Assembly (NCBI RefSeq): GCF_900109705.1
Contig: NZ_FOAI01000007.1
Span: 62,001 to 126,000, forward strand
Direction: 5' to 3'
DNA length: 64,000 nucleotides
Origin: Roseivivax marinus
GTDB lineage: Bacteria > Pseudomonadota > Alphaproteobacteria > Rhodobacterales > Rhodobacteraceae
The notes under the pieces were generated by a model, which was not told the DNA's origin, did not search any database, and saw only the letters and a list, made by a program, of their open reading frames with translations. Shown in pieces: positions 22,211 through 58,072 of this stretch. Numbering within the stretch: the first letter of the stretch is position 1; every line of letters begins with the position of its first letter. The position numbers and the translations under genes are program-made.

Positions 22211-22729
22211 ATGAAGCGCCCGATCCTCATCCACCCCGACCCGCGCCTGAAGAAGGTCGTTCCCGCCGTGGACGACCTCTCGGACGAGCTGCGTACGCTG
22301 GCCGACGACCTGCTCGAGACGATGTACGACGCGCCGGGCATCGGCCTCGCCGCGCCGCAGGTGGGGGTTATGTCCCGCCTGATCGTCCTCGACTGCGTCA
22401 AGGAGGAAGAGGCCGAGCCGCGCCCGCTGGTGATGTTCAATCCCGAGCTGCTCAAGGCCTCCGAGGAGCTGAGCGTCTACGAGGAGGGCTGCCTCTCGAT
22501 CCCCGACCAGTATGCCGACGTGGAGCGGCCGGCGCAGGTCCGAGTCGGCTGGCTCGACCGCGACGGCAACCCGCAGGAGGAGGAGTTCGAGGGCCTTTGG
22601 GCGGTCTGCGTGCAGCACGAGATCGACCACCTGAACGGCAAGCTCTTCATCGACTATCTCAAGCCGATGAAGCGCCAGATGATCACGCGCAAGATGCAGA
22701 AGCTCAAGCGCGAGAAGGCCCGCGGATGA
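22211..22729 (+). CDS. def: Peptide deformylase 1 (canonical)
   Basis: 172 aa. It removes the N-formyl group from nascent proteins. All three motifs are intact: GIGLAAPQ (43-50), EGCLS with the metal ligand Cys94, and HEIDH with His136, catalytic Glu137 and His140. The basic C-terminal helix is long (KRQMITRKMQKLKREKARG). It is the first of three tandem paralogues, and its stop overlaps the start of the second (ATGA). Confidence 0.96.
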   Translation: MKRPILIHPDPRLKKVVPAVDDLSDELRTLADDLLETMYDAPGIGLAAPQVGVMSRLIVLDCVKEEEAEPRPLVMFNPELLKASEELSVYEEGCLSIPDQYADVERPAQVRVGWLDRDGNPQEEEFEGLWAVCVQHEIDHLNGKLFIDYLKPMKRQMITRKMQKLKREKARG

Positions 22730-23223
22730 CCGTCCGCCCGATCCTGCGCTGGCCCGACCCGGTGCTGTCGCGCGTCTGCGCGCCCGTGGGCGATCGCGAT
22801 ATCACCGGTCTGGTCGGTGATCTCTTCGAGACGATGTACGCCGCGCCGGGTCGCGGCCTGGCCGCGCCGCAGGTGGGCGAGGCGCTGCGCGTGTTCGTCA
22901 TGGATGCGACGTGGAAGGACGGGGACATGTCACCGGTCGCGTGCATCGACCCCGAGATTCTGTGGATGTCCGACGACACGGTGCCGATGGACGAAGGCTG
23001 CCTCAGCATTCCCGGCGTCGCCGCCACCATCCAGCGTCCCTCGCGCATCCGGCTGCGCTGGCGCGGACTCGACGGTGCCGTTCACGAGGCCGACCTAGAC
23101 GGGGCCGAGGCGCGGGTGGCACTGCACGAATACGACCATCTCGACGGCAAGGTGACGTTCGACCGGCTGGAGCCGGAGGCGCGCGCCGCGCTCGAGGCGG
23201 ACTACGCCGCGGTGCCGTCGTGA
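22726..23223 (+). CDS. Peptide deformylase 2 (paralogue with intact active site)
   Basis: 165 aa. The catalytic motifs remain: GRGLAAPQ (42-49; Arg for the usual Ile/Val), EGCLS with Cys92, and HEYDH with His134, Glu135 and His138. It should be a metal-dependent deformylase. The start overlaps def1 and its stop overlaps the third copy (GTGA), making a translationally coupled trio. The first eleven codons are nearly identical to those of the third copy. Confidence 0.9.
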   Translation: MTVRPILRWPDPVLSRVCAPVGDRDITGLVGDLFETMYAAPGRGLAAPQVGEALRVFVMDATWKDGDMSPVACIDPEILWMSDDTVPMDEGCLSIPGVAATIQRPSRIRLRWRGLDGAVHEADLDGAEARVALHEYDHLDGKVTFDRLEPEARAALEADYAAVPS

Positions 23224-23714
23224 CGGTCCGCCCGATCCTGCGCTGGCCCGACAAGCGCCTGCGTACGGCGGCTGCCCCGGTGGACGAGATCACCGACGAG
23301 GTCCGGACCCACTGGCAAGACATGATCGACACCATGGAGGCGATGCCGGGCGTCGGTCTCGCCGCGCCGCAGGTCGGCGTGATGCTGCGCCTCGCGGTGG
23401 TCGATGCCTCGAACGAGCGCGGACATGCCGTTCGCATGGCGAACCCGGAGGTTCTTCATGCCTCGGTCGAGTTCCGCGACCACGACGAGGCCAGCCCGTG
23501 CCTGCCGGGCGTGCACGCGACGATCTCGCGGCCGCGGGCGGTGACGGTGCGCTACCTCGACGAGACCGGATCAGTGGTGGAGCGGGATTTCGTGAAGCTC
23601 TGGGCGACGAGCGTGCAGCACCAGATCGATCACCTGGCGGGGAAGATGTATTTCGACCGGCTGTCGAAGGTGAAGCGGGACATGCTGCTGCGCCGGGCGA
23701 AGAAGTCGAGATAG
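23220..23714 (+). CDS. Degenerate peptide deformylase homologue (catalytic residues lost)
   Basis: 164 aa with a GTG start overlapping the second deformylase. Motif 1 is intact (GVGLAAPQ, 44-51). In motif 2 the canonical EGCLSIPG reads EASPCLPG, so the metal-ligand cysteine position (92) is Ser and a Cys appears two residues later. In motif 3 HExDH reads HQIDH: catalytic Glu is Gln135. The frame is open and full length, so this is a maintained protein and not an obvious pseudogene. It probably lacks ordinary deformylase activity and may bind formyl-peptides or regulate its neighbours. Confidence 0.85.
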   Translation: MTVRPILRWPDKRLRTAAAPVDEITDEVRTHWQDMIDTMEAMPGVGLAAPQVGVMLRLAVVDASNERGHAVRMANPEVLHASVEFRDHDEASPCLPGVHATISRPRAVTVRYLDETGSVVERDFVKLWATSVQHQIDHLAGKMYFDRLSKVKRDMLLRRAKKSR

Positions 23715-23754: not shown

Positions 23755-24249
23755 TCAGCTGTCGCTGTCGCCGTCTTCCTCGGACATCGAGTCCGAATCT
23801 TCGCCGTCCGACATGGTCTCTCCGGTCTCGGCGGTCGCCTCGGACTCGTCGACCGGCACCGTGCCGTCCATGTCCATCGAGCCGTCTTCGTTGATTTCGG
23901 CGTCGGTCGCGGCATCGGCCGTGGTCGAGTCGTCCGAGCAGTTGTCGGATGCGGCCATTTCGGTGCCGTCATCCTCGGACATCTCCGAGCCCGAGTCGTC
24001 CCCCGAGGCACTCGCATCCTCGCTCATGCTTTCGTCGTCCTCGCAGTCGTCCATCATTGCGTCGGTCTCGCCTTCGGCGTCGCTTTGATCGACCGGGACA
24101 GTGCCGTCCATTTCCATTTCGCCCTCTTCGGTGATCTCGGCGTCGGTCTCGACGTCGGCGGTCGACGAGGTCTCCTGGGCGATCGCGGCGCTGCCGATCG
24201 TCATGGCGGCAAGGGCGGCAAGAACGATGGGGCTCTGGATGCGGGTCAT
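23755..24249 (-). CDS. Acidic secreted protein with an internal 80-residue duplication
   Basis: 164 aa. A signal peptide (MTRIQSPIVLAALAAMTIGSAAIAQ) precedes a mature part made mostly of Asp, Glu, Ser, Thr and Met, with no Lys or Arg. Residues 30-62 and 110-142 are homologous, sharing MDGTVPVD, and the similarity continues into SMSED/SMSEE. The period is 80 residues, or 240 bp. Cysteines at 69 and 104 could pair. No family is recognised; calcium or metal binding or a low-complexity envelope role is possible. It converges with the deformylase trio. Confidence 0.8.
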   Translation of the reverse strand: MTRIQSPIVLAALAAMTIGSAAIAQETSSTADVETDAEITEEGEMEMDGTVPVDQSDAEGETDAMMDDCEDDESMSEDASASGDDSGSEMSEDDGTEMAASDNCSDDSTTADAATDAEINEDGSMDMDGTVPVDESEATAETGETMSDGEDSDSMSEEDGDSDS

Positions 24250-24500
24250 TGGGGTCTCCTCCTGAAAGACGCGGCCTGTGGGGCCGCGCGACAGGGAGGG
24301 AAGGTATGTCGCGCACGCCGGGGTCCATGCCCTCGGGGAATGCGCGAGAATCCGCCGATTGCTGCGCGGCGGCGCGGCGGTAAATCGCCCGGCGGCCCCT
24401 TGTGCCGGTGTGCTTCGGCATACACGGGGAACCGCCACGCGCCCCTTTGAATCCGCTCCGGAAGCCCCACATCAGCGACACGACAGCCAGGAGGGCATTC

Positions 24501-27124: not shown

Positions 27125-28690
27125 TCAACGCACCCAGACCTCGACGCGCCTGTTGGCCTGCCGCCCCCACGAAGTGTCATCGCAGGCCATGGGCATCGCC
27201 TCGCCGAAGGCGTCCGTGCCGATGGTGACCTGCTCCAGATCGGCCGTCTCGGCGGCGGCGATCACGGCGTCCCGGACCGCAGCAGCGCGCTGGCGCGCGA
27301 TGTCGAGGTTGGCCGAGGCCGGCCCCACGCCGTCCGAGAACCCGACAAACATCAGCCGGCGCGTGTCGTAGCGCCCGGCCTCGATGGCATGGGCCAGCTG
27401 GTAGACGTTTGACCGGGATTGCGCATCGAGCCGCGCCGACCCCGGCTCGAACCGGAAGGAGGTGGACAGACGCTGCATCGGTCGCAGCGTGGCAACCATG
27501 CGCTTGAGCTCTGACAGCCCGGCGTCGCCCTCGGCCACAGAGATCGCGTTCGCGAAGCGGTCACCCTGATCGCCCAGCGGCACCTCCTCGGGTGACTGGT
27601 CGACGAAACCGGCCCGGCGGATCACGATCTGCGCCGCGTCCGAGCGGGTGAAGGACAGGAACTCACGCACCAACGCCGGCATCCGCCGCGCCGGGAGGTA
27701 GAGGAACATCGGCGCGGTCAGCGGATAATCCTCGGTCTTGACCGCCAGGCGGTCGGCCTCCAGCTCGAAACCGCAGGGACCGGCGATGGGCAGGACGCGC
27801 GCGAAGCCGGTCTCGGACACGCTTGCGATCCCGAAGGCGAAGGGGTCTTCGGCCACAGCATCAGCCAGCGCGGCCGTCGTCTCGTGCCGCACCGCGGTCT
27901 CGGGCAGGGACAGCCCGGCCGGGGCGAGGATCCGATCCTCGATCCCCTGCGCGAGGCCCGAACGGGCGTCGGGCACGTGCACCACCACCGGCGCGTCCGG
28001 TCCGCCGAGCTGGGACCAGTTGCTGATGCGCCCGCCCAGAAGTCGCGCGAGCTGGCGCAGCGACAGGTCCGCCACCGGGTTGGACGGCGCCACCACGGGC
28101 ACCATCGCATCGAGCGCGATGACCCGGCTGCGGTTGGCCTCGTCCAGCACGCCCATCCCCGCCTGGCGGGCGATCTCGACCTCTGCGGGCCGGATCTCGC
28201 GCAGGGCCATCACGGCGTCGGCATCATCGGCCATGAGGTCGGCGAAGCCCTCGTCGGTGGTGGTCAGGTGGAACGAGAACCGGCCCACGGGCTGGCCTTC
28301 GTTGGGATCGAGCAACGCGTAGGTGAAGCGGCGCGGGCCGGTTTCCTCACGGACCGCCTCCAGTTCGCGGCGCAGGGCGAAGGCTTCGACCAGGGCGGGC
28401 ATCAGGACCCGGCCCAGCGTCGTCGACCCCGAGATTGTCATCTCGGCCACGAAGTCGGTGAGGGACGGGCAGCCTGCACCGTCGCAAAGCACGCCGGAGC
28501 CGTCCACGGTCAATTCCCCGTAAGCAGTGTCGACGCGGTAGAATTCACCGTCGAAGCCCAGCAGGGTGCCAGACAGCTCGATTGCACCGTCGCGGGAGGT
28601 CAGGGTCACGTCCTGCGCCGCCGCCGGGCCGCCCGCCGCGAAGAGCGCACTGAAAAGTGCGGCGCGAAACGCCGCACATCGCTGTATCAT
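27125..28690 (-). CDS. Periplasmic PstS-like substrate-binding domain fused to an OmpA C-terminal domain
   Basis: 521 aa. A signal peptide (about 1-25, ending PAAAQ) is followed by a short beta region with CDGAGC. A phosphate-type periplasmic binding domain covers about 85-370 (MTISGSTTLGRVLMPALVEAF, VPVVAPSNPVADLSLRQLARLLGG, ISNWSQLGG). Residues about 400-521 form an OmpA-like peptidoglycan-binding domain (FRFEPGSARLD, GFSDGVGPASANLDIARQRA, NRRVEVWVR). This would tether a ligand-binding domain to the cell wall. No ABC permease or ATPase is nearby. It follows, 30 nt downstream, an anchored cysteine-containing protein, probably in one operon. Confidence 0.85.
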   Translation of the reverse strand: MIQRCAAFRAALFSALFAAGGPAAAQDVTLTSRDGAIELSGTLLGFDGEFYRVDTAYGELTVDGSGVLCDGAGCPSLTDFVAEMTISGSTTLGRVLMPALVEAFALRRELEAVREETGPRRFTYALLDPNEGQPVGRFSFHLTTTDEGFADLMADDADAVMALREIRPAEVEIARQAGMGVLDEANRSRVIALDAMVPVVAPSNPVADLSLRQLARLLGGRISNWSQLGGPDAPVVVHVPDARSGLAQGIEDRILAPAGLSLPETAVRHETTAALADAVAEDPFAFGIASVSETGFARVLPIAGPCGFELEADRLAVKTEDYPLTAPMFLYLPARRMPALVREFLSFTRSDAAQIVIRRAGFVDQSPEEVPLGDQGDRFANAISVAEGDAGLSELKRMVATLRPMQRLSTSFRFEPGSARLDAQSRSNVYQLAHAIEAGRYDTRRLMFVGFSDGVGPASANLDIARQRAAAVRDAVIAAAETADLEQVTIGTDAFGEAMPMACDDTSWGRQANRRVEVWVR

Positions 28691-28720
28691 CGAGGTTCCC
28701 TGCCGGTGCCGTCCGTCGTC

Positions 28721-29692
28721 TTATCTGGCGGCGATCTTCAGGTCTGCGATGAGATTGTTCAACACCAGATAGTCGCCGACGCTGTCACAGCCCGGAAACG
28801 CGAGGTCGATGTCACGCACCGTCGGGGCGCCCCCGTCACGCAGCTCGAGTGTCTGAGCGGAGATGTCTGTCTCGCAGGTGGCTTCGGTCACTGCGGCCTC
28901 GACGCTAACGTCGATGAGCCCGCCCCGCGCCGCGGTCCCGGCGGGAAAGCTGTAGACCTGCGCGCGCCGGGCCTCGGGGGCCTCGTCGTCGCCGAGGTTC
29001 AGAAGGAAACCGCTTTCTCCCCGCGCGGCCGCCTCAAGGGTGCCTGCGGCGCCCGTCCAGACGTGCCCCTCGGAAAAGTAGTCCGCCTCCCATTCGCGGG
29101 CGTGCAGCTCGAGGTCGCCCTCGCCCTGCCATTGCAGGACGATGCGGTCGTAGAACGCGAGGGAGGACACGGTGGCCTGAGCGACGGCGCCGGAATCGTC
29201 GGAGAAGGATGCGATGAAGACCGCGCCTTCGGTCAGGGCGGGGAAGTCCAGCACGAGCGAGCCGTCGGGCTGTGTCGTCTCGGTGATCATCAGGCCGCTG
29301 TGGTGCAGGCTCACGCGCTCGGATGCGTGGCAGGGCGCGGTCAGCTTCAGGCGCACCAGGGCCCCGGCAATCGGTGTGGCGGACAGCTCGGGATCGCACC
29401 CGAAGCCCGCCACGGGGGCGGATTCGGTTGGCATCGTGGGGATCGTGCTGCTGTCGGCCGCGGCGAGGCGAACCATGCCAAAGGGCAGTTGGGGCAGCGC
29501 GGCGCTGCCGATAGGCATTGCCTTCGGCAGATCGCGCAGCCCGGTCGCGGCGGATGTGTCCTGAATATCGGTGACCTCGACCTGCGGAGCCGGCGCGCCC
29601 GCCCGGAGAAAGCCATATTGCATCACGAAGCCGATCCCGAGCGCACAGAACAGGGTGCCGCCGGCCAATCCGAGCGTTTTCGGGGAAATCAT
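28721..29692 (-). CDS. Membrane-anchored periplasmic protein of unknown function
   Basis: 323 aa. One N-terminal hydrophobic helix (about 8-28) looks like an uncleaved anchor. The rest is probably periplasmic, beta-rich and acidic, with Cys99, Cys121, Cys273 and Cys302 available for two disulfides. GGAGGCAGAC precedes the ATG. I do not recognise a domain. It is the first gene of a pair with the PBP-OmpA fusion, with secA upstream on the same strand; whether it takes part in secretion or envelope function is unknown. Confidence 0.75.
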   Translation of the reverse strand: MISPKTLGLAGGTLFCALGIGFVMQYGFLRAGAPAPQVEVTDIQDTSAATGLRDLPKAMPIGSAALPQLPFGMVRLAAADSSTIPTMPTESAPVAGFGCDPELSATPIAGALVRLKLTAPCHASERVSLHHSGLMITETTQPDGSLVLDFPALTEGAVFIASFSDDSGAVAQATVSSLAFYDRIVLQWQGEGDLELHAREWEADYFSEGHVWTGAAGTLEAAARGESGFLLNLGDDEAPEARRAQVYSFPAGTAARGGLIDVSVEAAVTEATCETDISAQTLELRDGGAPTVRDIDLAFPGCDSVGDYLVLNNLIADLKIAAR

Positions 29693-29773
29693 GTCTGCCT
29701 CCGGTCACGGAATCCGTCTTGAAGGCAGTTTCGTCTGCGAGTCGGGCGCCCATTGGGCGGGGAGCCGGACTCT

Positions 29774-29837
29774 TTCGGGCGATTGCGCCCGAATCTCAAA
29801 CCGTCGTCACATTGGGGCGCCGGAATGCCCGGCGCCC
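29774..29837 (-). terminator. Two perfect hairpins after secA
   Basis: GGGCGCCGG/CCGGCGCCC (29815-29823/29829-29837, 5-nt loop) and TTCGGGCG/CGCCCGAA (29774-29781/29786-29793, loop ATTG). Both lie between the secA stop and the next gene. There is no U-run after either, so Rho-dependent ending or 3'-end protection is as likely as intrinsic termination. Confidence 0.4.
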
Positions 29838-29856: not shown

Positions 29857-32592
<2,736 letters not shown>

Positions 32593-32700
32593 TCGGGCTT
32601 CCTTGCCTGTCACCTGTGTCCTGTGCGGCCGCGGCTTGCCCGTCGCGCACAGAGCCCATAAGACACGGGGGAACGACCGGCTCGCGCCGCCAACGGTGGC

Positions 32701-57259: not shown

Positions 57260-58072
57260 TTGAACGAAGAGACACGTGGCCGTCTCACGCGTGACGGCAT
57301 CCGCATCTACGAGCCCGGCGACTACGCGGGCATGCACGCCGCCGGCAAACTGGCCGCCCAGCTGCTGGACGAGGCGGCCGAACACGTGTGGCCGGGCCAG
57401 ACCACCGCGGCGATCGACGACTACATCCGTGCCCGGATCGAGGAAGAGGGCGCGACCTCGGCCACGATCGGCTACAAGGGCTACCAGCACGCCACCTGCA
57501 TCAGCGTGAACCACGTGGTCTGCCACGGCATTCCCGGGCCCAAGACGCTGAAGGATGGCGACATCCTCAACATCGACATCACCGTGATTGTCGATGGTTG
57601 GTATGGCGACACCAGCCGCATGTACGTGGCCGGCAAGCTGAGCCGCAAGGCCGAGCGCCTGATTCAGGTGACCCACGACTCGCTGATGGTGGGAATCGAG
57701 ACCGTGAAACCCGGCAACACCTTCGGTGACATCGGCCACGCCATCCAGGCCTATGTCGAAAGCCAGCGCATGTCGGTGGTCCGCGATTTCTGCGGGCACG
57801 GTCTGGGCCGCGTGTTCCACGCACCGCCGAACGTGCTGCACTACGGCCGCGCAGGCACCGGCCCGGTGCTCGAAGAAGGCATGTTCTTTACCATCGAGCC
57901 GATGGTGAACCTTGGCCGCCCCGAGACAAAGGTGCTTGCCGACGACTGGACGGCGGTGACCCGCGACAAGTCGCTCTCGGCCCAGTTCGAACACTCGGTC
58001 GGCGTGACTTCCGACGGCGCCGACATCTTCACCCTGTCCCCGGCGGGCCGGTTCCACCCGACATATGACTGA
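57260..58072 (+). CDS. map: Methionine aminopeptidase, type I
   Basis: 270 aa. It removes the initiator Met after deformylation, complementing the def genes. Metal ligands are Asp106, Asp117, His180, Glu213 and Glu244. His89 (VCHGIPG) is the substrate histidine. The start is TTG at 57260 after AAAGGTGG; no ATG gives the conserved start MNEETRGRL. The stop overlaps the MFS start by 8 nt. Confidence 0.96.
   Translation: MNEETRGRLTRDGIRIYEPGDYAGMHAAGKLAAQLLDEAAEHVWPGQTTAAIDDYIRARIEEEGATSATIGYKGYQHATCISVNHVVCHGIPGPKTLKDGDILNIDITVIVDGWYGDTSRMYVAGKLSRKAERLIQVTHDSLMVGIETVKPGNTFGDIGHAIQAYVESQRMSVVRDFCGHGLGRVFHAPPNVLHYGRAGTGPVLEEGMFFTIEPMVNLGRPETKVLADDWTAVTRDKSLSAQFEHSVGVTSDGADIFTLSPAGRFHPTYD

Follow-up and report, generated by a model that had tools for sequence, protein, structure and literature searches.

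Beside secA in Roseivivax marinus, two genes form a two-gene unit that has its own conserved upstream element and is built of known kinds of domain. The first gene, P2, encodes a membrane-anchored protein with four conserved cysteines, and the second, P1, encodes a PstS-fold domain fused to an OmpA domain. Our leading interpretation, which we hold tentatively and rate somewhat below an even chance, is that the pair is an envelope unit timed through GANTC sites, with the PstS fold used as a docking surface and the inner membrane tied to the wall. Within the window, that is, the whole 64,000-nucleotide stretch of contig NZ_FOAI01000007.1 that was analysed, the list of open reading frames and their translations confirmed the position and strand of both genes:

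27125–28690, minus strand: P1, PBP-OmpA protein of 521 aa (ORF, translation, PBP_like_2 and OmpA matches, AlphaFold2 model)
28721–29692, minus strand: P2, membrane-anchored protein of 323 aa (ORF, translation)
29857–32613, minus strand: secA, the neighbour (SecA domains found by family scan; ATG start at 32589 likely)

The minus-strand order is secA, P2 and P1, with 30 bp (28691–28720) between the P2 stop and the P1 start, and radC lies past P1 on the plus strand. The genes adjoining the pair are radC and secA, with no transporter gene among them, which bears out the earlier remark that P1 lacks a transporter partner here. The names secA, radC and prsA (the PpiC gene) are backed by the family scan; argJ, msrA, msrB, def and dnaK are named from sequence reading or short motifs. 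Elsewhere in the window, three tandem peptide-deformylase-like genes, recognized by eye, precede msrB- and msrA-like genes (22211–23714, plus strand), and the deformylase-like triplet also has matches in the relative L063. The gene at 23755–24375 (minus strand) encodes a very acidic, repetitive, secreted-looking protein, for which a scan of 206 aa gave no Pfam match at 1e-3. Among other secA genes, those at G009:C1:432760-435570 and G415:C3:141521-144295 each give two match pieces about 90–115 bp apart in one open frame, suggesting, from sequence, an in-frame insertion near residue 460.

P1 begins with a signal peptide and a small domain of five strands, followed by the PstS-fold and OmpA domains, and its AlphaFold2 model has a mean pLDDT of 90:

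28613–28690, minus strand: P1 signal peptide, about residues 1–26 (sequence; first helix at 2–18 in the model; putative cleavage point)
28457–28612, minus strand: P1 N-terminal five-stranded domain, about residues 27–78, with a CxGxxC motif (strands in the model)
27590–28450, minus strand: P1 PstS-fold domain, about residues 81–367 (Pfam match, fold searches)
27128–27457, minus strand: P1 OmpA domain, about residues 412–521 (Pfam match; D453 and R468 conserved)

We infer that the N-terminal domain is an SH3/LSM-like barrel; weak LSM and RimP-SH3 matches, below cut-off, fall on the N-terminal domain of the PBP-OmpA paralogue L093, in which this domain is repeated. The PstS-like domain claimed at the outset is upheld, and the model and the fold searches agree on a PstS fold: Pfam places PBP_like_2 at residues 143–351 (E 6e-14, 52.8 bits, cut-off 27), Foldseek returned 4q8r with a TM score of 0.89 (by target) and 1twy_B with an E of 1e-18, and a second fold comparison aligned 242 residues with 4gd5 (Z 29.6, rmsd 1.9). 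P1 thus shares the fold of PstS-type proteins (TIGR02136, PF12849; 4gd5, 4q8r, 1twy) over residues 81–367, but it differs from them in scoring 78.5 bits against the TIGR02136 cut-off of 206.6, in its mostly changed phosphate-site signature, in having no transporter gene adjacent and in its fusion to an OmpA and an N-terminal domain. Three other PBP_like_2 genes of the genome score 147–193 bits, against 54 for P1, and could have a role in phosphate uptake.

The OmpA domain of the original prediction was likewise found, at residues 413–514 (E 3e-10; 40.7 bits against a Pfam cut-off of 27.2). Its Asp and Arg, D453 and R468, which we take to be the residues that bind the peptidoglycan peptide, occur in all 79 close P1 copies and in all 36 secA-linked copies with P2, and this conservation makes a scaffold plausible. 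Among the 13 secA-linked copies without P2, a set that omits L199 (beside radC but not secA), D453 is present in 10 and R468 in 9. Compared with the OmpA-family wall-binding proteins (PF00691; Pal, YiaD, YfiB), P1 exceeds the OmpA cut-off and keeps the Asp/Arg pair, but it falls far below the cut-offs of those proteins (20.9 bits against 125.35 for Pal), and neither a lipobox, sought by eye in the sequence, nor a barrel was seen.

P2 has a single membrane helix and, beyond a disordered linker, two beta domains, the first of them probably Ig-like; its model has a mean pLDDT of 86, with low confidence in the linker up to about residue 97:

29615–29683, minus strand: P2 membrane helix, residues 4–26 (helix in the model)
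29153–29401, minus strand: P2 Ig-like domain, residues 98–180, with C99 and C121 (fold comparison)
28724–29149, minus strand: P2 second beta domain, residues 182–323, with C273 and C302 (model)

In the fold comparison of residues 98–180, where middling Z scores are common, the best match had Z 8.9 and rmsd 2.3 over 80 residues, and the top rows (Z 8–9) were mostly Ig-like and related beta sandwiches. At the limits used, Pfam gave P2 no match above cut-off, searches of NCBIfam, PHROGs and the PDB sequences found nothing, and a viral fold library gave only diffuse matches. Versions of P2 lie in long ORFs at L080, L085 and L087 (644, 771 and 935 aa), with Big_9 above its cut-off in one and below it in two; the extra Ig-type repeats fused to P2 in L080 and L085 score 23.5 and 27.8 bits (cut-off 23.6), and such fusions in relatives suit a periplasmic protein.

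A membrane anchor with four periplasmic cysteines, as first proposed for P2, agrees with the single helix and the four cysteines outside it. C99, C121, C273 and C302 are present in all 76 homologous ORFs from named genomes, with C99 and C121 spaced by 22 residues and C273 and C302 by 28 or 29. P1 has its own set: C69, C74, C306 and C503 are found in 79 of 79 close copies and 30 of 30 copies in the wider set, and in 22, 21, 22 and 23, respectively, of 23 unlinked paralogues. We predict disulfides C99–C121 and C273–C302 in P2, and C69–C74 and an inter-domain C306–C503 in P1.

The two genes were surveyed in one genome per genus for 149 genera of Rhodobacteraceae. P1 was found in 107 genera and P2 in 102; 89 genera had both and 29 had neither, at survey limits that differed between P1 and P2 (1e-5 and 1e-40). 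Another 18 genera had P1 only and 13 P2 only, some of these single-gene cases perhaps reflecting the limits of the search, fragmented contigs or disrupted genes (G029). Co-occurrence is significant when kinship among the 149 genera is ignored (Fisher p 2e-9). The genes are adjacent, in the same order and on the same strand, in 87 of the 89 genera with both. In 82 of these 87 the pair follows secA at a distance of no more than 4 kb; among the remaining five, three have the pair and the secA hit on different contigs and two have them on one contig, 6–12 kb apart (G012, G328). The 80 named P1 loci, the best 80 of at least 482 confirmed and mostly close relatives, give a similar picture, with P2 directly upstream in 78, secA in 72 and a pair without a secA hit in seven, one of them on a short contig. 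Linkage to secA is strong, and independent occurrence in most genomes, the outcome that would have spoken against the original prediction, is not what the survey found; yet either gene can be found by itself, and the pairing, though strong, is not obligate. We take P1 and P2 to be a functional pair that is common without being obligate.

The pair also has a narrow taxonomic range. Among 61 genomes, 37 of them from the same family, P2 matched in 28 and near full-length P1, among the matches listed, in 30, all Rhodobacteraceae. Across the class, a P1 profile without the OmpA part matched in 34 of 289 genomes: the four listed family members did so from the N-terminus, and the other 30 only from position 93, that is, in the PBP part. 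Because genomes outside the family match only this part of the profile, the full P1 architecture looks restricted to the family in these samples. A plasmid-borne origin was considered and rejected, since neither P1 (limit 1e-30) nor P2 (limit 1e-5) had a match among 72,556 plasmid records.

The pair had been described as a secA-adjacent operon. Its adjacency to secA holds for most pairs, but a secA operon is too strong a term, because hairpins often lie in the gap between secA and P2, P2 has a conserved upstream element of its own and some pairs lie away from secA. The gap contains the following features:

29815–29837, minus strand: 9-bp G+C-rich hairpin 3′ of secA, without a T run (sequence, hairpin scan)
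29710–29795: four GANTC sites upstream of P2, starting at 29710, 29739, 29768 and 29791, of which 29768 is at the conserved position

The hairpin is possibly the end signal of secA, and hairpins occur between secA and P2 in 54 of 70 gaps, a raw count from a hairpin scan without shuffle control. With these hairpins and the separate element upstream of P2, co-transcription with secA was rejected as the default. A terminator-like hairpin with a T run also lies within the first P1 codons (28657–28677, minus strand) and might lower P1 relative to P2; with 2 found in the scan against 1.4 expected, such sites are no commoner than chance would give.

Of 77 P2 genes (the R. marinus window and 76 named loci), 56 have GANTC within the 110 bp ahead of their start, against a mean of 25 and a maximum of 36 in 200 shuffles that preserved base make-up only, with start codons chosen by rule. 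In 46 of the 77 the site lies at −74 to −92 of P2 (29 GACTC, 10 GAGTC, 5 GAATC and 2 GATTC), where GANTC ranks first of 256 XXNXX patterns; the other 31 lack a site at this position. Among control genes whose start the rule found, GANTC was upstream of secA in 1 of 69, prsA in 7 of 53, argJ in 10 of 56 and P1 in 4 of 79, each below its shuffle mean, and of radC in 26 of 60, above the shuffle mean of 19.5 and below the maximum of 31. P1 genes without P2 had the site in 2 of 13 readable cases (14 tried). The window as a whole holds 78 GANTC sites against 184 expected from base make-up, and its sole 110-bp stretch with four is that upstream of P2. Three sites within 110 bp also occur at 57588–57770 of the window, and a three-GANTC cluster lies near the 3′ end of the acidic-protein gene at 23755–24375. 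CcrM methylates GANTC, and GcrA acts at such promoters. The genome encodes GcrA and a protein with a RAMA domain, a domain that CcrM bears. Cell-cycle timing of P2-P1 of the CcrM/GcrA type may thus be indicated by these upstream sites.

The original prediction suggested a cell-wall-tethered sensor or scaffold. The scaffold half gains from the conserved D453 and R468; the sensor half, in which P1 would bind a small anion or other ligand and relay its state via P2, is weakened because the phosphate-site signature is mostly gone from the secA-linked copies, and we consider it unlikely. We take that signature to be the RxxxSGT and MSSR-type segments, with residue roles as in E. coli PstS. Against solved PstS proteins, the RxxxSGT segment of R. 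marinus P1 reads PDARSGL and the MSSR segment MALR. In the 36 secA-linked copies with P2 (a set omitting a duplicate genome, L061/L099, and two loci without secA, L139 and L171), Ser163-Arg164 of the MSSR-type segment is found in none, Thr246 in two (Leu in 32) and Arg240 in 10, against 10, 10 and 12, respectively, of 23 unlinked paralogues, which include five from G288, five from G358 or G353, three from G011 and three from G030. The MALR segment is itself partly missing from several distant secA-linked copies, and P2 has only about three residues ahead of its helix and therefore no cytoplasmic domain to signal with. The PBP domain of P1 here is probably not a phosphate receptor, judging from its residues, and a phosphate receptor or sensor was rejected as first choice. 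A ligand is nevertheless favoured by the true PstS fold of P1 and by pocket-side positions that are kept (residue 244 is Ser or Thr in 78 of 79 close copies, and residue 245 is Gly in all 79). L080 and L087, which are paired with P2 away from secA and are the only such two read, keep MSSR and SGT/TGT; the pair as such therefore does not need signature loss, and an older form of it may have bound ligand. Because of these two loci, we trimmed our confidence in a tether and raised that in a sensor. Scattered PBP-OmpA paralogues occur in some genomes (L092, L093, L094, L096, L192-L197, L211-L215), with five unlinked copies in G288 and four P1-type copies in G011. Those at L092 and L096 have the N-domain/PBP/OmpA order of P1 and, among the matches listed, are about 30–36% identical to it where measured, but they are not beside secA or P2 and such paralogues keep the MSSR and SGT-type signature more often; both adjoin PilJ-domain proteins, a neighbourhood that would also suit a sensor.

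The position beside secA raises two further possibilities. A helper of export or periplasmic folding, working with SecA and the neighbouring PpiC isomerase, would explain why 82 of 87 pairs are beside secA and why the divergent PpiC gene is conserved at the locus too; the available excerpts of PMC9275681 name this PpiC gene and secA among the direct targets of CenR in Rhodobacter sphaeroides and mark secA as essential, and those of PMC3441632 list secA in the RpoHI regulon of the same species. But some pairs stay together away from secA, no chaperone family was matched in Pfam or NCBIfam, and radC and argJ are also conserved neighbours, so the synteny may be old and not functional; we regard such a helper as improbable. 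In the numbering of R. sphaeroides, as given in the excerpts of PMC3413700 and PMC4344238, secA is RSP_1169 and dnaJ is RSP_1172, which leaves RSP_1170 and RSP_1171 as candidates only for P2 and P1; no paper on either was found in the literature searched. The second possibility, which we think rather unlikely, is that P1 and P2 act separately in the envelope and that their genes have only an old syntenic slot between secA and radC in common. The slot may indeed contain both, just one of the two (P1 or P2) or neither. On a secA tree of 53 loci, enriched for singles, at least 9 changes fall to P1 and at least 13 to P2, and an independent-pairs test on that tree had too few informative pairs to show paired change. 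Against this, pairs away from secA stay together with gene order unchanged, and the P1–P2 distance correlation is the highest of 15 gene pairs across 77 loci (raw 0.74, partial 0.44), although these distances are non-independent and some genomes are counted twice.

On our preferred reading, that of a membrane-to-wall tether, P2 would be held in the inner membrane by its single helix, and its flexible linker would present two disulfide-bearing beta domains in the periplasm. P1 would be exported and folded with disulfides, and its OmpA domain would hold peptidoglycan. In the secA-linked lineage the PstS-fold domain, no longer a phosphate receptor, would instead offer a surface for docking, with P2 the likeliest partner, and the pair would thereby tie the inner membrane to the wall. 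Cell-cycle timing would come from the pair's own promoter region with its GANTC sites, on which CcrM and GcrA would act. A more specific version, a Rhodobacteraceae-specific tether timed by CcrM/GcrA in which a ligand-less PBP docks the Ig-like anchor to the OmpA wall anchor, possibly locked by C306–C503, seems to us on the unlikely side. The pair would work in the manner of TolR, MotB and TssL, tethers between inner membrane and wall that combine a membrane anchor with OmpA-type wall binding. In contrast to these, the anchor and the wall-binding domain here are in two proteins, P2 and P1, and neither a motor nor a channel partner lies next to them.

No description of the PBP-OmpA fusion or of the P1-P2 pair was found in the literature searched, including the available excerpts of PMC10470522 and PMC7901474, and the suggestion of an undescribed envelope system agrees with these searches and with the linkage of the two genes. 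Most alphaproteobacteria lack Braun's lipoprotein and hold their envelope together by other means, according to the excerpts of PMC10470522 and PMC9275681. For envelope research, this conserved pair, with its predicted wall binding and an upstream element of the cell-cycle type, offers a tangible new candidate; if our reading is true, it would also clearly exemplify a solute-binding fold retained after the decay of its ligand site.
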